The translations under genes were made by a program, and so were the position numbers. This document shows positions 10,605-41,100 of a DNA stretch of 64,000 nucleotides, one piece after another (positions within the stretch are counted from its first letter, which is position 1; every line of letters begins with the position of its first letter). The DNA comes from Elusimicrobia bacterium GWF2_62_30 (lineage in GTDB: Bacteria > Elusimicrobiota > Elusimicrobia > Elusimicrobiales > UBA9959), in the NCBI GenBank assembly GCA_001799995.1, contig MGUK01000084.1:62001-126000 (forward strand). Direction: 5' to 3'. The notes under the pieces were generated by a model, which was not told the DNA's origin, made no database searches, and was given only the letters and a program-made list of their open reading frames with translations.

Positions 10605-10718
10605 CGCGGGGACAGGGTTAGTAAAACCTTCCGGAGGCCGAGGCTTGCATCGCGCCGAGGCCGGAGGATGAGCGAGGCACGGTGTTGCCGAGCGCGTTTT
10701 ACGAACCCTGTCCCCGCG
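10605..10718 (+). repeat. Dispersed palindromic element, copy 1
   Basis: Outer arms at 10605-10627 and 10696-10718 pair as CGCGGGGACAGGGTT plus GTAAAAC with one internal mismatch. They enclose a core (10628-10695) that recurs on the minus strand at 20454-20520 with one substitution and one single-base insertion. The core opens with CCTTCCGGAGGCCGAGG and contains GGAGGATGAGCGAGGCACGG. Arm sequences differ between copies. This copy lies between the rpmE terminator and the prfA start, leaving prfA without another visible promoter. Confidence 0.88.
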
Positions 10719-18351: not shown

Positions 18352-19308
18352 ATGAAAAAACCGCTATGGCTGGTAACCGGCGGGGCCGGGTTCATAGGCT
18401 CCAATATAGTCGAGGAACTGCTGCGCCGCGGCCTGCGCGTACGCGTGTTCGATAATTTTTCAACCGGCAAAAAAGAGAACCTCGCCCCGTTCGCCGGCAA
18501 GTTCGAGCTGGTGACCGGCGACCTGCGCGAGCCCAAGGACGTGGCCAGGGCCATGCGGGGTGTCACCTATGTGCTGCACCAGGCGGCTTTCCGTTCCGTG
18601 CCCAAATCGGTGGACAATCCGCGCGCCGCCAACGACAACAACGCCACCGGCACGCTCAACGCGCTGATGGCGGCCAAAGAGGCCGGCGTGAAGCGCTTCG
18701 TCTACGCGGCCACGAGCTCCGCCTACGGCGAATGCCGCGTTTTCCCGCAGAAAGAATCGCTGCCGACGATGCCGGTCTCGCCTTACGCGGTCAGCAAACT
18801 GGCCGGCGAGCATTACTGCCATGTTTTCGCCAAGACGTACGGCCTCGAGACCGTGGCGCTGCGCTACTTCAACGTGTTCGGGCCGCGGCAGAACCCGGAA
18901 TCGGTCTATTCCGCCGTGATCCCGCGCTTCATGGAACTGGTAGTGCAGGGCAAGCCCCTGGAGATCCACTGGGACGGCAAGCAGTCGCGCGATTTCACTT
19001 ACGTCAGCAACGTCGTGGACGGCAATATCCGCGCGGCGCTGGCCCCGGCCTCGGTTTCCGGCCTGACGATAAACGTGGCCACCGGCACCAATATCTCGCT
19101 GCTCGACATAGCCCGGCAGCTGGAGAAGATAACCGGGAAAAAGATAGAGAAGACGTTCTCCCCGAAGCGCAAGGGCGACATCCGCAAGACCTATTCGGAC
19201 ATCTCCCGCGCGCGCAAGCTGCTCAAGTACAAGCCGCTGGTCACATTCCCCGACGGGCTTAAGCTCACCTGGGATTATTTCTCCAAGAAATTCACGGGGG
19301 CGAAATGA
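18352..19308 (+). CDS. NAD-dependent nucleotide-sugar epimerase (extended SDR)
   Basis: A 318-residue extended short-chain dehydrogenase. It has the NAD motif GGAGFIGSN near residues 10-18, catalytic Ser/Tyr-x3-Lys in TSSAYGE and SPYAVSKLAGE, and RYFNVFGPRQNP. It is closest by eye to UDP-glucose or UDP-N-acetylglucosamine 4-epimerases (WbpP/Gne type), which supply sugars for LPS or surface polymers. The exact substrate is not determinable. It overlaps tdk by four bases and sits behind lptD. Confidence 0.88.
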   Translation: MKKPLWLVTGGAGFIGSNIVEELLRRGLRVRVFDNFSTGKKENLAPFAGKFELVTGDLREPKDVARAMRGVTYVLHQAAFRSVPKSVDNPRAANDNNATGTLNALMAAKEAGVKRFVYAATSSAYGECRVFPQKESLPTMPVSPYAVSKLAGEHYCHVFAKTYGLETVALRYFNVFGPRQNPESVYSAVIPRFMELVVQGKPLEIHWDGKQSRDFTYVSNVVDGNIRAALAPASVSGLTINVATGTNISLLDIARQLEKITGKKIEKTFSPKRKGDIRKTYSDISRARKLLKYKPLVTFPDGLKLTWDYFSKKFTGAK

Positions 19309-19868
19309 TCTTCAACGTCTCATCTTCTTCCGGCTGGATCGAGGTCGTCTGCGGCAGCATGTTCTCGGGCAAGACGCAGGAGCTGATCCGCCGGCTTAAG
19401 CTGGCCAATATCGCCCGGCAGAAAGTGCAGGTCTTCAACTCCCACCTGGACACGCGCTACTCTAAAGAACATCTCGTGTCGCACGATAAGTCCACGCTGG
19501 CCGCCCGCCCGGTGAAGGGAGCCAAAGAGATACTCAAGGACGTGCTGCCCGATACCCAGGTGGTGGGCATAGACGAAGCGCACTTTTTCGGCGCCGAGAT
19601 AGTGGAGGTGGCGCAGAAGCTGGCCGATTCCGGGCGCCGCGTGATAGTGGCGGGCCTGGACCAGGATTACCGCGGCGAGGCTTTCGACAACATGGCCAAG
19701 CTGATGGCGGTGGCCGAGTTCGTGACCAAGAACCTGGCTATCTGCATGGTGTGCGGCAACCCCGCCCATTTCAGCCAGCGCCTGACCGATTCCGGCCGCA
19801 GGATAGAGGTGGGGGCCGGCGACAAGTACGAGGCCCGCTGCCGCAAATGTTTTAAACCCGAGAAATAA
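19305..19868 (+). CDS. tdk: Thymidine kinase
   Basis: A 187-residue type II thymidine kinase of the salvage pathway. The P-loop is GSMFSGKT near residues 17-24, the Walker B-like segment is VVGIDEAHFF, GLDQDYRGEAF follows, and the structural zinc ligands are C-M-V-C and C-R-K-C near the end. The ATGA overlap couples it to the epimerase gene. Confidence 0.96.
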   Translation: MIFNVSSSSGWIEVVCGSMFSGKTQELIRRLKLANIARQKVQVFNSHLDTRYSKEHLVSHDKSTLAARPVKGAKEILKDVLPDTQVVGIDEAHFFGAEIVEVAQKLADSGRRVIVAGLDQDYRGEAFDNMAKLMAVAEFVTKNLAICMVCGNPAHFSQRLTDSGRRIEVGAGDKYEARCRKCFKPEK

Positions 19869-19897: not shown

Positions 19898-20398
19898 ATG
19901 TACCGCTCTGAAAAATTCAACCCTTCGCTGTTCGGAAAATTATTCCATCTTGGCGGCAAACTGGCCGAGTCCAACCGCTGGCTTAAGCTGGCGGAGGCGC
20001 TGCCCTGGGAAAAGCTGGATGAGGCCTACGGCCGCTTTTTCTCGGCCGGCTACGGCCGCCCGGCGAAGGATTCGCGCCTGGTCTGCGGGCTCCTTGCCGT
20101 TAAGCAGCTGAAGGGGCTTTCCGACGAGGATACGGTGGCGGAATTCATGGAGAGCCCTTACCTGCAGGCTTTCTGCGGGCAGGAATACTTCGCTCTCGAG
20201 GACGTCATTAATCCCGGCATCCTTTCCGAGCGGCGCAAGCGCCTGGGCGCGGAGTTCCTGGCGCTGCTGGACGCCGAGCTCTTGGCCGCCATCAAGGCCA
20301 ACAAGGACCTGAAGTTCCACGTCGCCCGGCCCGCGGCGGAAGAGGCCTGCTTCCTCTGCTCCCTCGCCGGCAAGATCAAAGCCGCCTTCTCCAACTAA
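19898..20398 (+). CDS. Solitary transposase N-terminal domain (DUF772/InsH type); truncated or domesticated
   Basis: A 166-residue protein whose first ~125 residues match the DUF772 domain that begins many IS5/IS1182-group transposases: LPWEKLDEAYGRFFSAGYGRPA, LVCGLLAVKQLKGLSDEDTV, YLQAFCGQEYF, and SERRKRLG. The DDE catalytic half is absent. The frame ends with an unrelated ~35-residue tail and an ordinary stop, so it cannot be an active transposase. No terminal inverted repeats were found around it, and no Shine-Dalgarno is visible. Codon use matches its neighbours, arguing for an old remnant or a retained small protein. Copy 2 of the palindromic element begins 25 bases downstream. Confidence 0.7.
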   Translation: MYRSEKFNPSLFGKLFHLGGKLAESNRWLKLAEALPWEKLDEAYGRFFSAGYGRPAKDSRLVCGLLAVKQLKGLSDEDTVAEFMESPYLQAFCGQEYFALEDVINPGILSERRKRLGAEFLALLDAELLAAIKANKDLKFHVARPAAEEACFLCSLAGKIKAAFSN

Positions 20399-20422
20399 CC
20401 TTCCAAGGCTTGCTTCAGTGCT

Positions 20423-20552
20423 CGGGCCTGTCATGGGGACCGGAACGCAAACCGCGCTCGGCACACCGTGCCTCGCTCATCCTCCGGCCTCGGCGCTATG
20501 CAAGCCTCGGCCTCCGGAAGGGTTTGCTAACCCGGTCCTCATGACAGGCCCG
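20423..20552 (-). repeat. Dispersed palindromic element, copy 2
   Basis: Outer arms at 20423-20443 and 20532-20552 pair as CGGGCCTGTCATG plus GGACCGG with one mismatch. An inner GCAAACC / GGTTTGC pair (20447-20453, 20521-20527) follows. The core (20454-20520) is the near-identical reverse complement of the core at 10628-10695. The arms share no obvious sequence with copy 1, yet pair as well. It lies between the solitary DUF772 gene and the tolB terminator. Confidence 0.88.
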
Positions 20553-20591
20553 ACGCCATGCACAAGTTAATGCTTTTATCCGAAGATACGC

Positions 20592-20625
20592 AAATAAAAA
20601 AGCGGGACGCTGGTCCCGCTTTTGG
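20592..20625 (-). terminator. Intrinsic terminator of the pal-cpoB-tolB operon
   Basis: Read on the minus strand: stem AGCGGGAC / GTCCCGCT, four-base loop, then TTTTTTATTTG. A few T residues on the plus side could make it work in both directions. Confidence 0.85.
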
Positions 20626-20645: not shown

Positions 20646-21932
20646 TTACGGGCTCCAGTTGGGGGTGAAGGTGCTGCCCTTGAGGTCCGTGAGGGGGTGG
20701 GGGGCGCTGCCGTCGGCGTCCATTACGAACAGCTCCTTGCGGCCCCGGCGCGTCGACGTGAAGGCTATGAACCTGCCGTCGGGCGACCAGGAGGGGTCTT
20801 CGTTGTCGCCGGCCTTAACGGTAAGGCGGCGTATCTGGCTGCCGGTCAGGTCCGTTACGAAAATATTGAACTTTTCCTTCGAGGTTTCCCGCCCGGAAAA
20901 AATAAGCCATTGGCCCGACGGGGACCAGGCGGGTGAGTCGCACCAGTTCATGCGGGGGGTCAGGCGGCGCGTCTTGCCCGAGGCCAGGTTGAGGACGTAG
21001 ATCTGCGGGTTGCCCGCCCTGTCCGAGACGAAGGCGACTTCCTTGCCGTCGGGGGACCAGGTGGGCGAGGAGCTCACCCCGAAACCTTTCATGAGGGCCT
21101 TGAGGCCCTTCGTGACTATATCCAGCGCGTAAATGCCGGGGTCGTCCCCGCGGGACAGGGTCATCACCATCGTCATCCCGTCGGGCGAGAACCCGCCGGG
21201 GATGTTCAGCCCCTGGAAAGTGGTGAAGGGGCGGATCTTGCCGGCTTTCAGGTCTATCTCGAACATGTCCGGGTTGCCCCAGCGGTAGGTGGTGTAATAG
21301 ATGCGCATGCCGTCCAGCGACCAGCGCGGCAGCAGGTTAATGCTGTTGTCCGAGGTGAGCTTGGTGAGGTTATCCCCGTCGTAGTCCACCATGTAGATCT
21401 CTTTGCGGCCGGTGGCGTTGTTGGAGAAGACCAGCTTGGAATGGGCTATGCCCGGCTTGCCCGCCAGGCGCCGGGTCACGTCGTCGGCGAACATGTGCGC
21501 CGCGCGGCGCATCGCGCGCTTCTCGCCCTGGTAGAACTTCTCCATGACCGGCCGCCCGGAGGCGAGGTCGTACAGGCGCGGGTTGAAGGTCCAGACCCTG
21601 CCGGCGTCCCTGGCCTTGCCCGTGATAAGGCTGGGGGCCAGCGCCTTCCAGAACGCCAACGACTGCGTGCTGACGTCGAGGTTGGCCGCCGTGAGCGCGT
21701 CTTCCTGTATGTCGAAATACCTGGAGTAAAGCAGGTCGGCGCGGACTATGTCCCGGAAATTCTCGGCTATGTCCAGGTCCGCCTGGCTGGTGGTGTGCTC
21801 GGGCAGGAACTGCGACAGGGCGAGCCGCGTCTGCTTCGCCTCGACGGCGGAATCTACGCCGATATAGACGTTGGTGGCCGCGCAAAGCGGCGAGGCGCCC
21901 AGGAGCAGGAATAGTGCCGCGAGCGCTTTCAT
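20646..21932 (-). CDS. tolB: Tol-Pal system beta-propeller protein TolB
   Basis: A 428-residue periplasmic protein with signal peptide (FLLLGASPLCAA). An N-terminal TolB domain (about 20-165) covers the DIAENFRDIVRADLLYSRYF region. A six-bladed propeller follows with repeated PxWSPDGxxIAF motifs (LPRWSLDGMRIYY, SSPTWSPDGKEVAF, DSPAWSPSGQWLIF, EDPSWSPDGRFIAF). It works with Pal to link outer membrane and peptidoglycan during division. It is the last gene of the minus-strand pal-cpoB-tolB unit. tolQ, tolR and tolA are not nearby. Confidence 0.95.
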   Translation of the reverse strand: MKALAALFLLLGASPLCAATNVYIGVDSAVEAKQTRLALSQFLPEHTTSQADLDIAENFRDIVRADLLYSRYFDIQEDALTAANLDVSTQSLAFWKALAPSLITGKARDAGRVWTFNPRLYDLASGRPVMEKFYQGEKRAMRRAAHMFADDVTRRLAGKPGIAHSKLVFSNNATGRKEIYMVDYDGDNLTKLTSDNSINLLPRWSLDGMRIYYTTYRWGNPDMFEIDLKAGKIRPFTTFQGLNIPGGFSPDGMTMVMTLSRGDDPGIYALDIVTKGLKALMKGFGVSSSPTWSPDGKEVAFVSDRAGNPQIYVLNLASGKTRRLTPRMNWCDSPAWSPSGQWLIFSGRETSKEKFNIFVTDLTGSQIRRLTVKAGDNEDPSWSPDGRFIAFTSTRRGRKELFVMDADGSAPHPLTDLKGSTFTPNWSP

Positions 21933-29103: not shown

Positions 29104-32100
29104 ATGAGCAAGATAAAAAACAGCCTCATCAAAATTTTCGTCGCGGGGGTACTGGCCGCCGGCCTTTCAGTCGCGGCCTACGCCCAGACTTATACCGGCA
29201 ACTTCACGCTGCCGGAAGGCTCTAATTTTGACGGCGGCGACAGGGACGCCGGCTGGGCAACAACCTACTACAACGGCAGCACTTACGTGGTCGGCTCCTC
29301 CTCTTCCGCCATCGGCCTCAGCGGCCTCCTGGTCAAGTATGACGGCAGCGGCGTCTGGGTTTCCTCTGCGGTACTGCCCGGCGTGGACTTCAAAGGCGTG
29401 GCGGTCAACGCCAACGGCATTTACGTGGTGGGCACGAGCGACACCGATATGGTGACCGCGAAATACGACCAGGCCCTTGTGCTGGTCTCTTCAAGAGTGG
29501 TGGGATTCCAGATTACCGTCGGGGCCGACATAGCCCTGTCGGCGGCCGGCAATGTCTTTGTGGTGGGTTCCGACCTGACCCAGCTGGATTCCAAGATAGT
29601 GATGTACGACGCCAACCTTGCTCTTCAATCCGAGAACGGCATAGACAGCGCCGGCGGCGTGGACACCGGTGTGGGCGTGGCCGTGGACGGCACCAATGTA
29701 TACATGGGCGGGTACAGCCTTAAATCGGGCGCCACTTATTTCGTGCTGGCAAAATTCGATGAGAGCAGTTATTTGAGTTCCTATTCCTCCACCTCCCTTT
29801 CCGGGGTTTACCTCGATGCCACGATCCGGGCGGGCGGGAAGCTGGCCGTGAACCCGGTTACGCACGAAGTTTACGCGGCGCTCAACCTTGCCGACGCCAT
29901 GATGGTGGTGAAGTACGACCAGTACCTGGTCAAACAGGGCACGCAGACCTTTTACAGCCCTTTCTATGCCCAGGCTTCCGACGTGGTACTGGACAGTACC
30001 GGCAACGTCTACCTGGCCGGCGCCTTTAATTCCGGCGCCGACGATTATGCTGTAATGCTGAAATATAACCCCAACTTGTTATTCCTCTCCAGCGCGGCAA
30101 GCGTGCAGACCTACGGCTACGAGGCCACCTCCGTGGCGCTCGATACCGCGACCGGCTACGGCTATGTGACCGGCGTGTATTTTTCCGACGGCAGCGGCAA
30201 CGAGCCGGGCTGGGATATGAGAACCGTTCGCCTCGGCCCGCTGGGAGATGGCGGCGGGGCGCAGCAGCCCGAGGCCACTTTCTCGGGCAACTTCGGCGAC
30301 ACCGAACTGGGCGCTGTTTTCGGCCTGACTTCGGGCCTTGAGGCGGACAACCTGGCGGTGGACAATTATACCGCCGGCGGGCCGTTCGTCTACATCGTCG
30401 GCTACGCCTCCAACCTGGTCAGCGGCAAGAAAGACGGCTATATAATAAAATACAGCAGCGACGGCGTTAAGCTGTCCTCGGCCGCTATTACGCAGCCCGG
30501 CTACGACTTTACCGCGGAGGCCGTTAAGGTTTCCTCAGAAGGCTTCGTCTACGTCGCCGGCGGCGCGGCGGCTGCCGATTCCGTCTATTCCCTTGTGGTG
30601 AAATACACGCCCTCGCTGGTGGTGGTCACTTCCGTTACCCATGGCGGGTATGACCTTACCATGGCGCTCGGTCCTACCGGAGAAGTGGTGGTGGGCGGCT
30701 TTAAATACATCTCCTTTTACGGCCACGATGCCTGGTATATCACTAAATACGACAGCGCCTTGAATTACGTTACCAACAGCAATGCGCTCTCGTTCGCTTC
30801 CTTCGATTCCACGGAAACCGTGCAGGGTCTGGCCCTGGACAGCGCGGGCAATATCTACGCCGTCGGCAATAAGTACGACAATTCTTTCGGTAATTATGGT
30901 ATCCAGGTCATCAAGGCCAACCCCGGCATGACCACCTATTCAACTATCATGCCCGGCGATGGCCTGGGCATAGGCGTTGACATACTCGGGAACAAGAACC
31001 TGGGGCACGCTTCCGTGCTTGTGGACGCCGCCGATAATCTCTATGTCATCCATCCCTCCACCAACGCGGCCACGGGGCTGGCCACGGCGATCAGGAAATA
31101 CGACACGGTCCCGGACCTCATCGGGTACCAGACTTTCGACTCCGCTTATCACGACGAGCCGCTTACCTCCGGTTTCGACCGCTACGGCAACCTGCTGGTG
31201 AGCGGCTGGAGCTTCAACGACCAGCGCGTTTACCAGGGCGGGTTCCTGCTGCTGTACAACCCGGAACTGGTCCTTATCACTTCCGGCCCCATGATGGCGG
31301 CGGGCCTGGACGCGGACATGAACCGCGATTACGTATACACTCTCGCAGGCGGCGGCCCCGAGGTCCACACTTTCCGGTTCAACCTGCCGTCTGCCGGCAA
31401 CATCTTCAGCGGCGGCGTTTACGAGGCGGGCGGCGCGCTGGTTTCCAACCTTTTCGCTACCGGCGTCGCCTACTATGGGTCCGAGGTTTATTCCGTAGGC
31501 GTGAACGGAACCGACAGCCTGCTGGTGCGCTATAACATGGTCGGAAACCTGGTCTCTTCCGCCGTTTTCACCGGCGCCGAATTCCGCGCGGTGAAAGCCA
31601 ATGCCAACGGCGTTTACCTCGCCGGCGGCGGCATGGTGGCCAAGTACGACCACAGCTCCGGCCTGGTGCTCAGCTCCGCCGCGGTGCTGCCCGGCGACCC
31701 GACCGCGAACGACCTGGTGCTGGACGAGGCCGGGAACGTTTACGTAGCGGCTTCCGAGACCGGCGCCGGCGGTTCCGACTTTAAGCTCGTTAAATTCGAC
31801 AGCGACCTGACCTATCTCACTTCCGTGACCCAGGATTTCGGCGGCTTCGAACGCGGCTTTGGAGTGGACGTGGATACGGTCGCCGGCCGCGTGTATATCG
31901 CCGGCACCAGCCTTCAGGGCCCGTCTACCTTCTATATGTCGGGCGGCTATAACACCGGCGACCTGGGCTCGCCTGTCTTCTCGGCGCCGTATGGCGGCGT
32001 TTATTCTGATCCCGAAATGAATCTCGGCGCCAAGCTGGCGGTCAACCCGGTCACGCACGACGTGTTCCTGGTGGGTTCGCTCGGCACGGAAAATGACAGG

Positions 32101-35100
32101 AAGATCCTGACCCTGAAGTATAACCAGAACCTTACCTTGTCCTCTGCCGCGGCGTTCCCGGGAGGCATGTACCAGCTCGGGATGGACGTGAAGGTCAGCA
32201 GCGAAGGCTACGTTTACGTGCTGGGTAAGGACGATACCGGCGGGTATGACTCGACCGCGCTCCTCAAGTACGATGAGAACCTGGTCTTCCTTTCCAGTTC
32301 TGCCCAATACGTGCCCGGCGTGAAATTCGTCGGTCTTTCCCTGGCCCTGCATCCCGATCTCGGCGACGCTTACGCCGCGGGCGTCCTCGATGCGGGTTCC
32401 GGCACGAACATGTTCACGGCCCGCTTTGAGGCTTTGCCCGGAGTAAAATACGTGCCCCCGCTGGCCTTTACCGGGCTTTTTGCCGAAGCTACCGGCGTCA
32501 CCGTCAACGGCGGCGGCATGGATATGGGCACGGGCGCCGCGGTTTACGGGTCTTACGTCTACGCCGTCGGCCATTCCGCCCCGGCGGGCAGCGTTATAGT
32601 CAAGTACGACCAGACCGGCAATGTGGCTTCTTCTGCCACTTACAGCGGCGCCGGGTTCATGAACGTAGTGGCCAACGGCGACGGTGTGTATGTCGCCGCC
32701 CAGGGCGATGGCACCGGCTTTGTTACCTTGAAATATACCCATAGCCTTGTCCTAAGTTCGGCCGCCGTGCTGCCCGGAGATTCCAGCGCCAGGGATATCG
32801 CCCTGGACGCCTCGGGCAACGTTTACGTGATAGGTTCCAACATGGGCGAGGGCGGGAACGACGACTACAAGATAGTCAAGTACGACCAGTACCTGGCGCA
32901 GCAGGGCGCCCCCGGGCTCTTCGACGCGGGCGGCTACGACGAAGGCCGCGGCATAGCCGTGGATAACGGCTTCATCTATGTGACGGGCGACAGCCTCATG
33001 GCCGGCGCCACTTATTTTGTGACGGCAAAGCTTAACTCTTCGTACGCGGTGGTCGCTTCCACGGTCTACGCCGGGGCTTATGTGTCCGCCGAGTTCCCGA
33101 TGGGCGAGAAACTGGCGATAAACCCGGTCACTCACAACGTGTACCTGGCCGCGAACGCCTCCCCGGCCACGATGCTGATCCTGAAATACGACCAGGACCT
33201 CGTGCCCCAGGCGGAAGAAACGGTCTTCAGCACCTCCTCCTATGCGCATGCCGCGGGGATAAAACTGGACGCCAGCGGGGACATCCACGTCGCAGGCTCC
33301 TATAGCAACAGTCTCCGGGACATCCCGCTGCTGCTTAAGTACGACCCGCAGCTCGTGCTCCTTTCCAGCGCTGCCAAGGCGCAGCCCTATAATTTTGAGG
33401 TCGTCGGGCTGGCGCTCGACACGACCACCGGCAGCGGCTATCTGCCCGGCGTTTACTTCTCCGACGGGAACGGCGGCAACCAGTCCATGTGGGACATGCG
33501 CACCGTCAAGATGGACCCGCTGCCCGGCACCGGCGTGTACGGCGTGATCACCGGCACGGTATCTTACGACGGAATGCAGACCGGCGAATCCCTTGTCGCT
33601 ATCTTCACCAGTACCGACATAATCAATTCTAACCCGTATACTTTCGCCACCATCAATACCGCGGCTAACCCCTGGGACTATACCACTCCCAACCTGCCCG
33701 CCGGCACCTATTACCTGCTCGGCATAATCCTTACCCAGGGCATGGAGGCGGGACCGCAGAAATACGACCCCTGGGACGTCCTTGGCTCCACCGATAATAT
33801 GACCGCGGTGGTCATCAGCGAGGCCGGCGTCCAGCCCGGCATTAACTTAGCGCTTGTCGACGGTACCGACGAGAATCCCAATCCCGTCTTTACCGGCGGC
33901 TACATAAAAGGGGCCGTCTCCTATTCCGGCGCCGTCCAGGGCGTCGCCCGCGTGGCGCTTTCCTCCGCTCCGCTGGCCCTTGGTTCGAGCGAGAACATCA
34001 TTACGAATATGCTCGTGGGAGCGAACAGTTATGAGTTCGGCGGCCTTACCATGCCCGGTACATACTACATCACGGCCTGGCTGGACGAGAACGAGAACTC
34101 CCAGCTGGACTGCGGCGAGTCCAACGGCGCTTACAGGCCCACCCGCGGCGTGGACTGCGCGTTCGAGTCCCGGCCCATCTTCCTGGCCGAGAATACCGCG
34201 CTTGCCGGGGCGGACATTACCGTCACGGATTTCGTTTCGGTGACCGGTTCCATCTTCAAGGACATGACGATGCCCGACGGCAACGGCGTGTTCATGGCCA
34301 CCCAGTCCGCCGCCGGTTATGTGCCTTTCTATATGGGCGCGTACATAGCGGGAACTTCAGATATCCCTTACGAATTCCGGCTCTCCACCAGCGCCGCGCC
34401 GTACGATATTACGCTTTACATAGACGAGAACGAAGATCTGAACCGCGGTTTCTTCGAGGCCTATGGCTCGACAGCCGGCGTTCTGGTCGCCTACGGCAGC
34501 CCGGTGACGGGCGCGGACATAATCCTGTCTACGCCGATCATCCCCGTCCCATCCCTCGACTGGGCGGGCGGCATGAGCTACAACGAGACCGGCGTTCCCG
34601 ACGGGTATTCCGGCCTGTTCGTGTACAGGGTGAAATACACCAGCCCCAACAACCTGGCCCCTGCGAACGGCTATCCCAAGGTGAACATCGCCTATGATGG
34701 CGTTCCCCTGAGCAGTTCGCCGTTCACGATGACGGCGCTCGCCCCTGAGGATACGGACTACTCCGACGGCAAGATGTTCACCTATACCTGGGCGCTCTCC
34801 GCGGGCTCCGGGAGCGCCGGGTATTCCTACCAGTTCGCGGCGTACGACTCCGACAACATCCCCGCCGTGGGTCCCGCCGCCGAGGCGACGGACGGACCGC
34901 TGGTTTCTGAACCACCGGCGATAACCTACGCCACGACAACGCATGTGCTGTCTGGCATCACGGCGCAGGTGATCACCAACGGCATGTCCGGCGCCCAGCG
35001 CCTGGCCAGGGACACGGCCGGCAACATCTATTCGGCGCAGGAAGATTCCGGGATCCTGGTGCTCACCAGGCGCACAGGCTCCGGAGTTACGCAGACCACG

Positions 35101-38100
35101 TTCGTGGAATTCGGCGGCGCCACGCTTAAGGATCTGGCGGTGGACCCGTTCGGCAACAGCTATATCCTGGCCGGGACGGGAGAATCGCCGCTTGTGGCAA
35201 AATTTGGGACTTCCGGTGAGGAGTTATGGATAAGCACCTTTGGTTACGGTGCGGACCCGGTTTCACTGGGCGTTTCCACCTCCGGCGTGGTTTACGCCGC
35301 GGCCAATGATACTACGGACAGGAGCATACTGCTCTACAAACTGAAGCCCGACGGCTCCGAGGTGTGGGAAACCCCCGTGCGCTACCAGTACGCGCAAGGC
35401 GCCTCCACCGATACCGTGGCCCATATCTCGGTGGTGCCCCAGTCCAATGTGGTCGCCATTTACGTGGCCGGCGCCGTGAGTACGGGGCCTATGGTCACCA
35501 GCGGCCTGCTGGCTAAGTTCATAGATAACGGCGGCGCCGTTACCTTGCCGGCGTGGGTTAAACTTTATTCCAGCGCCAGCCGGGACGAGTACAGCGAATA
35601 CAGATATGCCGTGGCTAAAGCCGTAGCGGCCGATAAGAACGGCAACGTTTACGTGGCCGGGACCGATAACCGGTACGACGCCGGCCAGGGCACCGACGTC
35701 TGGCTGCTGAAATATAATTCCGGCGGGTTCCAGCAATGGGCTTCGGCCAAGACTTTCAATTCCGACGCCTACGCCGACGACGACGTCGCGGCCCTGGCGC
35801 TGGACTCCATCGGCGACCTGTATGTTTCCGGCGGCGTTGTCGCCTGGAGCAGCGGCGGGTTTAACCTCTGGGTCGCTAAATACAGCTCCGGCGGCGTCAG
35901 GCTGCTCAGCCGGACGTACGACTATAACGGCAACTCTGATTACGGTTACGATGTTATCGCCGGTTCGGCCGCGGTTTACACTGCCGCTGAGTTCGACGGT
36001 GCTTCCGGCCTTTACGAACTGCCGCTTTCCATAGGCGCGCAGTCGGAGTATTTCACGGCGGCGGAGGGCCCCAATACGGGCTCCGTCTCGCTTGCGTGGA
36101 ATTACCCCGTTCCCCTGCCGGAGGGCTCAACGTTCTACGTGCAGTACAGCTCGGCCGCGGTGCCGAACTGGGCGACCGTGCCGCTGGTTACGGTAAGCAC
36201 CGGCGTCGCGCAGTGGGAAAGCCAGGAGTACCTGGTCGGCGGCCTCATGACCGGCCGCGACGCCAGCCAGAACATCTTCCCGCAGTACAAGTTCCGGGTA
36301 AGCCTGCGGTCCTCCGCCGGCATTTACACCGTGCTGGTCTCTACCCCCTCGAGCTACGCCAGGACTCCGTTCGCGTACGACAGCACCCTGCCGTACGGTA
36401 CGGCTAAGTTCTCGTATATGCACGGGACCACGGCCGGCGAGAATACCGGCAACGCCATAGCCGTTAGCGGCAGCTATGTCTACCAGGCTTTCGGCAACGA
36501 TTCCGGGGATTCCGTCGGACTGGGCTTCCGGAAACATAACACCAACACCTCCGCCGTAGAGTGGACCAAGTTCTTCAATACGGCTGCCGGGGCCTACTTC
36601 AGCGTGAACGCGCTCCTGCGCGACAGCGCGGGCAGTTTCTACGCCGTGGGCAGCCGCGCGTCCATAGAGGACCCGGCCAATACGGACTTCTGGATAGGCA
36701 AATTCAACGCTGACGGCGACCTGATAGGGAGCTATTCCCAGGACGTGGACGGCGGCAGCGACGAGCTGTTCGGCGCGGTGCTGGACGGCGCCGGCGGCCT
36801 CTACACCGCGGGCAAGTTCACCGATGTGACAGGAGAGAACGGGGGGGAGATCTCCGTGCGCAAGTATAATGTGGCAGCCTCGTCTCCCTACCTTCTCTGG
36901 GCTTCTACCCAGTCTGGTTCCGGCGCGGGGCAATTTGTAAGTATGCCCGCCAGGACGGGCAAGTCTCCCGCCAAGTTCGGCCAATCCGGGTCGGGCGATG
37001 ACGCGGCCTACGGTATAGCGCTCGACGTCAACAACTCGCGCCTCTACGTGACCGGCGCCATAACGGTGGAAGCCGGGAACACCGACCTCTGGGCGGCCAG
37101 GTACACGCTGGACAACCACATGGTCTCCTCTTTCACTTATAATACCGGTTCCGGCAATGCCGCGGGCTACGGCGTGGCCGTGGCTCCCTCCGGTGTGTTC
37201 GTTGCCGGTTCCAGGTCCAATGGCTCCGGCACCCCCGTGATGTACGTCGCGCAGTATTCGCTCGATTTCTCCACCACGGTGTGGGACATGGCCGAGGGCC
37301 CTGACTCCGAGTCCGCGCTGCATAGCGTGGTGGTGGACGCGAACGGCTACGGCTACGGGGCCGGGTTCGAGTCCTCCTGGGAACAGGAAGGGCTGAACGC
37401 CATCTTCGGCAAGCTGGCCCCTAACGGCAATATTGTCTGGAACCGCTACTTCAACGACGATGCCCGCAACGTGGACGAGGCCGCCTACAGCATTGTGCTG
37501 GATACGGCCAACAGGGTTTTCTCTTCCATCCGCACGGGCTCGTACGGTTCCTTCAGCCCCGGTTTCTACATGTTCCCGCAGCCTTCGTTCAATATGACCG
37601 CCGCGGAATATCACGTTCCGGGAGCGGTGAGCCTTACCTGGCTGTCCCAGGCTACCCTGCCTGCCGGCACCACCTTCTACGTGCAGTACGCTACCAACAA
37701 CGTCACCGTAGTCTGGTCGGCCGCGGCTGCCCAGGAGAGTTTCATAACGGACAAACCCTTGTGGGAAAGCGGACAGATGGAGTACAAGGTTTACGGGCTG
37801 GATAACGGCAAGAACGCGCTGGGCGCGGCCATCGGCCCGGACTATTACTTCAGGGTCTGGTATTCCACCGGCGCGGGTTCTTACACCGCCGTGCCCGGGA
37901 TCCCGGCCGCCAAGGCGGCCAACGCCTATATGCCGGAAAGCACCCTGGTTTATTCCGGCGACAACAGGTTATATACCGCCGGAGTGCGGTATATGATGGA
38001 CAACGGGTTGACGCTGAACGGCGCGGTGCGCGGGCCTTTGGGCAATATCTATTCCGTGGTCAACGCCATGCAGGGCGAGTCAAGCCTGTTCGCGCTGCGC

Positions 38101-41100
38101 AAGCTGAGCCCGGGCGGCCTTCCGCTCTGGACGAAGTATTTCACCACTTCGGAATATGACCGCATAAAAGCCAACAGGATGGCGGTGGACGCCGCCGGGA
38201 ACCTTTATGTTACCGGCAGGCGGGCCCGCTGGGACGAGACGACGCAGACGGACGAAAGCCGCATGTTCCTGATCCGCTATAACGCCGACGGCGTTATGGC
38301 CTGGAAATACTCCGGGCCGCTTTATACCGAAGGCTACAGCGTGGCCGCGGACGCCTCTGGCCATGTTTACGTGGCCGGCAGCTCCGGCACGTACATGACG
38401 GGGGGCAATGACGCCTGGATGGCGAAGTTCAGCGTGACGAGTTCCAGCGCGACCCTGTTGTGGGAAAACCTGAATGACGGCGCCGCGAACGAGTACGACA
38501 GCGCTTATGGCGTGGCCGTGGCAGGCAGTATGGCGTATTTCGCGGGTTATTCTACCGAGCAGACCGGCGATGGCGGCGTCTGGCTCGGCAAGTACGACGG
38601 CTCGGGAGTTCTGGTTTCCAGCCGCAGCATTAGCAACGCGCCCGGCGAAGAGGCCGCTTACGGCGTTGCCGTATCCCCTGTTACCGGCAGTATTTATGTG
38701 GCAGGCCAGGCGATAAATAACGACTACGGCACGTACGACGGCGTGGTCTACATCTCCAGCGCGGACCTGAGCGACTTCGGCGTGACGGTTTCCACCTATC
38801 ACAGCGCCAGCACCCAGTGGGGCAGAGCGGCGGCCTACGGCCTTACGCTTGACGCCGCCGGCGCCGTTTACGTGACCGGCACGGATGACCGCAGCGACAT
38901 CGGCTGGGGCAGGGACCTGTGGCTGCGCAAGTATACCTCGCAGCTCGGGGCGGACTCCGAACTCTGGACGCAGACGTTCAATTCCAACGGGCAGGACGAC
39001 GCGGGCTACAGCGTGGCGCTGGACAGCTCAGGCTACGTCTACGCCGCGGGCGCGTTCGGCATGGGCGACGGTGTGTACCGCTACAAGCAGGCCAGCAACC
39101 TGGCGTACAATCCTACCCTTACGGCCAGGATAATGCGCGGGGCCCCGGGCACTACGGACACCACGCCCTTCGCCGGCGTTAGCGTGGCCTTCATCCCGTA
39201 TTCGCAGACCGGCGGTATAGACGCCTACGGCGTCAGGATGGGTTCTACGAACGCTTCCGGCTATTTCACCCGGGAAATGGCTCCCGGCCGGCAGTACTTC
39301 ATCGCCGTTGCCACGCAGGGTTATACCCCGACGGTCAAGGACCAGCAGATCGACCCGAACGGGACGTACTTCGTCCAGTTCGCGGGAGACTACGAAAAAA
39401 CCTTCACGCTGTACCCTGCCGCCGATCCCGGCAACGCCCTCAGCGTAACGGTGACCTCGGCCACGGCCGGGGACCTTGTGACCGCCGAAGTGTTCTTCAC
39501 CGAGACCGGCGAAAAGATGGCCTATGCCATGGCGCAGGTGCCGGCTTCGACTACTACCGTCACGTTCACCGTGCCGAGCGTAGCCACGGCCGCGGCCAAC
39601 GTGTACACGCTGGGCGTCACTATCCCCTCCAGGAGCGTGCAGCGCAGCAGGAAGCTGGATTCGGCCTTCCCTTCTTCGAGGAACGCTTACGATGTGTGTA
39701 TGTCCACCACGGACGGGGCCATCATCTCCTCGGCCGGCTTCGATGTGACGGCTTCGACCGTCCCGGCTTCTTTCAGCGGCGTGGTGCGCAACAGCGCCAC
39801 CAATGCCCCCGTGGAGAACGTCAGGGTCTCGCTCTACCACCAGGACTGCGTGCCCGAAGTAAAGAACAACGCCTACGACGAATACCAGATGCTGACAGAC
39901 GTGAACGGCAAGTTCTCGTTCTACGGCGTGACGCCCAGCACCGTCCCCTACCTGGCTACCCTCAGGAAGGCGGGCTATGGGGCCACCGGCATGGGCTGGT
40001 GCCAGTATTTCGTCTCTTCCTCCGTAGTGAACGGAGGCGTGACGGTCTCGCAGGGCGGGGGGTTCAATTACCAGGACTTCTCCCTTGCCGAAGCCACGTT
40101 CACGTTCAAAGGTATAGTCACGTATGACAACGTGCCGATACCCAACGCCAACGTAATGGTGCATGGCGACTATACCTGGTACACCGGCGGTTCCGACTCC
40201 TACCGCCAAGGCCAGGGCATGGGCACCGACGCCAAGATCCGCACCGGCGCCGACGGTTCCTTCACGTTCAGCTCCGCCACGGCCAACGGCCTGCTGGAAG
40301 GCGGCTTGCGGCTGAATGTGGATTTCCTCGGCAGCTGGAGGCAGTTCAACGAGGGGCGGACCAACTCGAACACGGTCGACTCCGACGATATCCGGATAGT
40401 GATCTCCGGCCAGCGTTCTACCACCACCGTCAGCGGCTGCGCCAACGGCAAGGTGTGGATGCTGAGCGCCACGGACGGCTCCTGCCGCGCCGCGGTGTAT
40501 CCCGGCACGCCGCTCGTCCTCAATATAGAGCCGCCCGCCGGGGAAAGCCGGATCGGCCGCATCTACGGCGACCTGGTCTTCGTGACCACTTACACGGTGA
40601 CCGAGCAGTCGCCGCTGTTGATCTCTACCGCCGCGCCGGTTACCGTAATGGCCATGGCAAACTGCGAGGGCAGCTGTTCCAATACCCAGATGGGCTTTGT
40701 GACCCTGTCCGGAGCTTATACCGTCAATACGGCCACTTACAGCATCTCGCTGGCTACCGGCACGAACTACGACGTCAAGCTGGTTTCCACGGAATGGGGC
40801 CTGACCAGTTCCTTCGATATGGACGTGGACCTGCAGTCCACCGACACGGCGAGGGTCAACTTCACGGTAGGCCGGGCGGGCAAGCTGACGGGCAACATCC
40901 TGCTGCCCAGCGGCGCCAGCTACAGGCCGAACCTGGTATCGGAAGACGATCCTGCGTTCCATTCGATGTATATCACCATCAAGGGCCAGCAGATGGACGT
41001 CTTCGAAAAGACCATGCCCGACGAGAACGGCGAGTTCGAGTTCCCTAATATCGCCCCCGGCTCCTACGACCTGGCCCTGGTCCCGCGCGGCGACGGCTTC

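Follow-up and report, generated by a model that had tools for sequence, protein, structure and literature searches.

Genes and features at the locus

The window, the whole stretch of 64,000 nucleotides that we analyzed, contains a 166-residue frame that matches a transposase in its N-terminal part only (the solo gene). It lies between two genes: upstream, one that we take from its family to be a thymidine kinase gene, and downstream, one that is presumably TolB-like. The features are as follows.

19305..19868, plus strand: presumed thymidine kinase gene, 29 nt upstream of the solo gene and probably in the same operon
19898..20398, plus strand: solo DUF772 gene, 166 amino acids, ATG start and TAA stop, from the open reading frame list and profile matches; domesticated N-terminal part of an IS5-type transposase
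20054..20269, plus strand: DUF772 domain, residues 53–124, from the Pfam match; mostly helical in the structure model
20354..20392, plus strand: predicted C-terminal helix, residues 153–165, pLDDT about 53, from the structure model and hydrophobic-moment analysis
about 20422..20553, minus strand: palindrome copy 2 with its own outer arms, from folding, repeat search, and a model match on the minus strand
20594..20623, plus strand: terminator-like hairpin, read by eye
20646..21932, minus strand: presumed TolB-like gene, the downstream neighbor in many relatives
10606..10718, plus strand: palindrome copy 1, from the inverted-repeat comparison and a model match

Palindrome copy 2 sits between the stop codon of the solo gene and the terminator-like hairpin, and hairpins resembling the latter were found by eye 3′ of the solo gene in many relatives. 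The first-pass annotation had placed the palindrome next to the gene with a gap of 25 bases; the adjacency holds, but we read the gap as about 23. Elsewhere in the window, positions 29400–39100 hold direct repeats (families D1 and D3–D5), possibly from repeat-domain proteins.

The solo protein is the N-terminal part of an IS5-type transposase

The protein matches Pfam DUF772 at residues 53–124 (E = 4e-10) and aligns to positions 8–130 only of the 419-position IS5 transposase model NF033578, which bears out the earlier description of a 166-residue frame restricted to the N-terminal part. Only DUF772 and IS5-type models matched; there was no match to the HUH/Y1 transposase family. The loss of the DDE half, also claimed at first pass, was confirmed: NF033578 positions beyond 130 were not found at the locus, the DDE domain is absent from both the protein and the adjacent frames, and a profile search around the loci placed the DDE part of the IS5 profile nowhere near any solo gene. 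Such a half could not fit at the locus, because the opposite-strand tolB-like frame ends 247 nt downstream of the solo gene. The protein thus has the N-terminal DUF772/IS5 domain of the IS5 type; the multiple copies and variable position of a mobile IS5 element were not found, as there is one copy here and the neighbors are mostly constant (exceptions are G017, g14, g17, and g18).

PMC3711429 gives an experimental demonstration of programmed frameshifting in a DUF772 (IS1182) cluster, and on that precedent the solo gene might be ORF A of a two-ORF transposase whose DDE half lies in another frame. We regard this as very improbable: nothing but the palindrome, the terminator-like hairpin, and the final part of the tolB-like gene on the other strand occupies the following 250 bases, the C-terminal part of the IS5 profile occurs on other contigs only, and the solo gene mostly keeps its neighbors. 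A split transposase with a separate DDE partner was rejected as well. C-terminal parts of the profile were found only in G003, G011, and G018, which carry other, longer DUF772 frames, and in a weak 35-position match in G030.

Distribution and selection

The gene was found in 30 of the 32 genomes of the window's genus, both misses being incomplete genomes, and in all 19 that are at least 90% complete with at most 5% contamination. Within the window's family (f1, Elusimicrobiales), 52 of the 59 listed genomes have it. Order-wide the count is 54 of 149, comprising 52 in f1 and two in the sister family f2 (genera g17 and g18), a split counted among the genomes listed, which leave out 75 without a match. 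Phylum-wide, 60 of 340 genomes match the query; the matches outside the order are long open frames in G162, G168, and G336, repeated copies in G331, and short or weak ones in G334 and G176. All 31 solo-gene loci in the named genome collection came from Elusimicrobia, Elusimicrobiales, Elusimicrobiota, or "bacterium" bins. The gene is usually single copy, with two copies in G017. In G331, IS5-type transposase pieces gave six equal-scoring matches; the two fetched (L361 and L362) are both truncated by contig ends, a pattern that a multicopy insertion sequence would produce.

Among 30 orthologues from the genus, dN/dS over residues 1–140 had a median of 0.13 (427 of 435 pairs, those with dS < 1.5) and fell to 0.02–0.10 in the four closest pairs. 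Within the genus, 69 of these 140 columns are invariant, and 20 columns are invariant across 41 proteins from 12 genera. Residues 1–140 are under strong purifying selection. The orthologue search and selection test proposed at first pass thus showed the truncated form to be a real conserved gene, and the neutral decay in relatives that the same annotation had named as a refutation was not what this median and the near-universal presence in the genus revealed. A decaying insertion-sequence remnant that has yet to be lost would also be a truncated transposase, as this gene is, but strong purifying selection and occurrence in 12 genera leave that explanation with hardly any credibility.

The neighborhood is similarly stable. 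In 48 of 54 loci, a thymidine kinase gene immediately precedes the solo gene in the same orientation, at a gap of −1 to 149 nt (median 6.5). Outside the genus, it is nearby in 21 of 24 loci and tolB in 14 of 24, some of these loci being cut by contig ends. The six loci that lack it upstream belong to four g14 genomes, g17, and g18. In g14, the solo gene stands between its usual neighbors but inverted (three of the four loci were seen whole, one at a contig edge); in g17 and g18, neither the thymidine kinase nor the tolB-like gene was found within about 3.5 kb; and the tolB-like gene of g3 and g15 is more distant or was not found. Because the g14 gene keeps its neighbors yet is turned round, the association with thymidine kinase may be simple synteny.

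Origin of the solo gene

The closest full-length relative in the genus, on contig G003:C42, is about 48% identical over residues 1–139 and continues, a few residues past the end of the alignment, into a motif around position 147, the expected first catalytic aspartate. A tree of 43 N-terminal domains unites 30 f1 solo proteins (of 32 solo proteins) at 89/85, apart from 11 other rows, and places the two f2 solo proteins weakly beside the full-length proteins of G003 and G168. A single clade of all 32 solo proteins was not rejected (p-AU 0.29), and on this phylogeny one or two domestications are possible. The solo genes of g15 split in the tree, those of G142 and G143 (L306 and L305) falling within g1 and that of G144 (L293) with g3; this placement suggests transfer or odd genus labels, and these three genomes are maybe exceptions to vertical descent. 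That the solo gene was domesticated is well supported, and we hold it to be nearly certain.

Structure and the C-terminal tail

The AlphaFold model is confident for residues of about 20–140 only (mean pLDDT 76). A Foldseek search with it returned no convincing relative among solved structures (best E = 0.9), a fold search gave similarity to DnaA domain IV only at Z 4.1–4.3, and a sequence search of solved structures yielded a single irrelevant match (E = 1); the missing fold match is no proof of a new fold. The protein is nearly neutral (23 K+R versus 22 D+E) rather than strongly basic. DNA binding by the solo protein is likely by descent. Our literature searches, outside which most subscription journals lay, found nothing on DUF772 as a domesticated transposase or as the N-terminal domain of IS5 transposases, and nothing relevant on domesticated or truncated transposases or on palindromic repeats of Elusimicrobia.

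Past residue 140, sequence conservation is lost, with no invariant column among the 30 genus orthologues, and amphipathic character is retained. In all 53 uncut solo proteins, the last 20 residues include a 14-residue stretch with a hydrophobic moment of 0.41–0.75 (median 0.62), the 53 tails coming from related proteins and so not counting as independent observations. Other windows of the same proteins had a median of 0.38, with 0.7% of 918 reaching 0.62, and the C-termini of 38 mechanically chosen open reading frames of the window (the solo gene included) had a median of 0.36, with two reaching 0.62. The moment exceeds 95% of the tail's own shuffles in 35 of the 53 proteins and does not in 18; the window's own tail is among the weaker ones (moment 0.46, shuffle p 0.15), and g14 tails are weak. 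Nine full-length relatives reached 0.22–0.47 in the matching stretch and 0.19–0.38 at their own C-termini; the amphipathic C-terminal segment was not seen in these nine. The tails often carry aromatic residues together with lysine or arginine, and their median net charge is +1. AlphaFold places a helix at residues 153–165, beyond a linker of low confidence, with a pLDDT close to 50.

One way to read the tail is by analogy with Noc: DUF772 would bind DNA, and the amphipathic C-terminal helix would anchor the protein to the inner membrane. A segment at the extreme C-terminus of every uncut protein whose character is kept while its letters are not, its absence from the nine full-length relatives, and a helix predicted beyond a linker all speak for such a tether, as does a median moment close to the 0.65 of the FtsA tail and higher than the 0.41 of the MinD tail. 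Amphipathic helices serve dimerization too, however, and the net charge is just +1, a third of the tails (18 of 53, the window's copy included) do not stand out from their shuffles, those of g14 are weak, and the helix prediction is of low confidence. We consider the tether unlikely, and a shade more so its fuller form, in which a transposase DNA-recognition domain freed from its catalytic half and joined to a C-terminal membrane-targeting helix would make a DNA–membrane tether coexpressed with thymidine kinase. If it were true, a nucleoid or replication organizer would have been born from an insertion sequence. A membrane or dimer role of the C-terminal helix is a lead.

The palindrome belongs to a family of structured repeats

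Compared with shuffled DNA, copy 2 of the palindrome has a far better fold (z −5.8), which none of 200 shuffles matched. In the inverted pair I1 (10610–10685 versus 20463–20538), it is 95% complementary to copy 1 over 76 nt, and the element profile matches at 20432–20542 with E = 3e-25, the model having been built partly from that copy. Neither window copy matched in an Rfam covariance-model search, up to E = 5. About 45 copies occur in the window's own genome (49 rows, of which 4 are weak and partial).

The element has a core of roughly 95 nt with covarying helices. The consensus of 35 copies across the genus has outer arms and two hairpins whose loops hardly vary, together with a conserved internal loop (GGTTAGCAAAAC / GTTTTGCGTTCC). 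In the 35-copy alignment, from which the structure was itself derived, 97.9% of cells pair, double changes occur at 19 of 32 pairs, and 0 of 500 shuffles scored as high; slid versions of the structure pair at 31–50%. Within the window's own genome, cores are 96% alike and outer left arms 37% alike (27 usable copies, 300 equal-length pairs, with 3 of 30 loci dropped and one copy misregistered). Each copy's two arms pair with one another at 9.9 of 12 positions; for arms of different copies the figure is 4.7, and none of 10,000 permutations did as well. The outer arms, which are copy-specific, seem to be part of the element.

By eye, further element types with other internal-loop sequences and much the same two hairpin loops can be seen at L199, L205, L210, L211, L212, and L170:16716-16831, and L191 and L192 (G005:C11 and G005:C41) carry a hairpin-like insert of about 27 nt at different positions within the core. 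Another palindrome class, with GGGGAC near the outer end and in some cases long arms, was seen at L048 and L058 (at both, 3′ of the gene) and at L164:17552-17648, L167:19331-19428, and L170:2398-2493; it is possibly REP-like or linked to Y1 transposases.

Turnover of the element was examined in the close genomes G005 and G014. G005 has 44 element matches, of which 19 loci with enough flank were inspected and the flanks of 16 sought; all 16 were found in G014, where 11 sites carry the element in both genomes and 5 have no detected element. At 10 of the 11 shared sites, the core is nearer to another copy of the same genome than to its orthologue, a comparison that somewhat favors paralogues as the best of 10–15 was taken, while the sought flanks are 84–98% identical. 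The exception is L204/L281, whose cores are 98% identical and inverted. By strand comparison, 4 of the 11 shared-site elements are inverted between the genomes. The arms of L201/L285 match (21 of 22), and their cores are 81% alike. Those of L184/L274 differ by no more than a one-base shift and a single change, around a core that is 82% alike in flipped orientation; arm differences are larger at the remaining shared sites. Judged from whole sites rather than from isolated single events, the pattern looks like active exchange of cores by replacement or conversion, at some sites within arms that stay in place. Insertion of cores into preexisting hairpins was rejected: no hairpin was seen by eye at three bare G014 sites that correspond to G005 elements or at one bare G028 site (element in G024), and the arms therefore seem to come with the element. 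A Y1 transposase as universal mobilizer was also set aside: five of the 32 genus genomes gave no match, and all five have elements (assemblies 82–93% complete). The repeat family raises the question of how near-identical cores sit and flip inside copy-specific arms.

Gene and palindrome: partners or neighbors

The first-pass annotation had suggested that the protein might recognize the palindrome as RAYT transposases do REP sequences. In such a pair, the solo protein would bind the folded palindrome and help to spread, protect, or silence it. The element model R1 was built from 35 elements and run with strict filters, at the cost of weak matches; it detects the element in 45 genomes out of 149, from genera g1, g3, g14, g15, and g16. 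Gene and element occur together in five genera, the gene without a detected element in seven, the element without the gene in none, and neither in seven; the one-sided Fisher p for these nested distributions is about 0.07, computed by hand and ignoring phylogeny. The proposed check on co-occurrence thus came out divided, since every element genus has the gene and seven gene genera have no detected element. Within the genus, G001 and G020 carry 23 element matches each with the gene undetected (83% and 66% complete).

Adjacency was seen in 1 of 54 gene loci (252 kb), that of the window, no more often than chance would give with 12 elements per 457 kb; the other locus with elements, L296, has two copies about 1.7 kb from the gene. 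Four gene-positive genera (g4, g5, g12, and g17) were sampled over 422 kb, in which about 11 elements would be expected at that density; the sole match had E = 5.9, the level of chance. A de novo inverted-repeat search of four gene-positive genomes found few repeats, as it did in control genomes. Other short palindromes lie 3′ of the gene at L047, L048, and L058.

The RAYT/REP-like pairing draws on the presence of the gene in five of five element genera, a folded palindrome undergoing turnover, the scarcity of other, longer DUF772 frames (255–562 amino acids, in just 5 of 32 genus genomes), and the five genomes with elements and no detected Y1 transposase. Against it stand the seven genera with the gene and no element (a single chance-level match in 422 kb from four of them), the lone adjacency, G001 and G020, and a solo protein that has no catalytic domain. 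Of the hallmarks of a RAYT/REP system, the usually single-copy, vertically inherited gene is present, the HUH/Y1 domain was not found, and a palindrome lies beside the gene in 1 of 54 loci. The analogy was unsupported by adjacency and by the sampling of gene-positive, element-negative genomes, co-occurrence was divided, and we judge the analogy improbable. A local link is disfavored because adjacency occurs at just that one locus, and a genome-wide link is weakly hinted at by the nested distributions. Independence of the solo protein from the palindrome is the better reading, in our view a quite probable one, and the palindrome looks like a chance neighbor of the gene in the window's genome.

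Interpretation and comparison with known systems

We favor, with a probability of about 0.6, an ancient domesticated, noncatalytic, probably DNA-binding protein beside which the repeat is incidental. An IS5-type transposase would have lost its DDE catalytic half and retained the N-terminal DUF772 domain, and since then, at least in f1, it would have been passed down as a host gene, usually in single copy and mostly right behind thymidine kinase. The two genes would be cotranscribed; the protein would bind DNA through its DUF772 helices and act noncatalytically, either in regulation or as an architectural protein, and its C-terminal helix would mediate dimerization or attachment. A palindrome of an independent structured-repeat family would have settled downstream of the stop codon, ahead of the terminator-like hairpin. 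The finding is more interesting as a protein than as a protein–repeat pair: a stand-alone DUF772 without its catalytic half, selected across at least one bacterial family, is a clean protein for learning the role of the domain.

Among dispersed structured intergenic repeats, bcr1 is one example. The element is a member of an independent family of structured repeats. It differs from known dispersed structured repeats (PMC2267715) in that its outer arms vary between copies and its core is replaced or inverted at shared sites; many copies and a conserved fold are common to both.

The solo protein stands closest to IS5-family transposases (NF033578; G003, G162, G168, and G336), with 46–52% identity over the N-terminal 130–140 residues; it differs in having no DDE domain, a usually single copy, a mostly fixed neighborhood, and an amphipathic C-terminal segment of its own. 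Noc carries its amphipathic helix at the opposite end of the protein. Its domain is unrelated to DUF772, and the likeness is by analogy only, in DNA binding and an amphipathic helix, both predicted for the solo protein (for Noc, PMC4331003 and PMC8429893). With RAYT, or TnpA-REP, and its REP or REPIN sequences, as described in PMC3116915 and PMC8266576, the shared traits are a domesticated transposase-derived gene, usually in one copy, and many folded palindromes. The solo gene departs from that system in its lack of an HUH/Y1 match and of a catalytic domain, in a palindrome that is not regularly adjacent, and in occurring where the palindrome was not detected.
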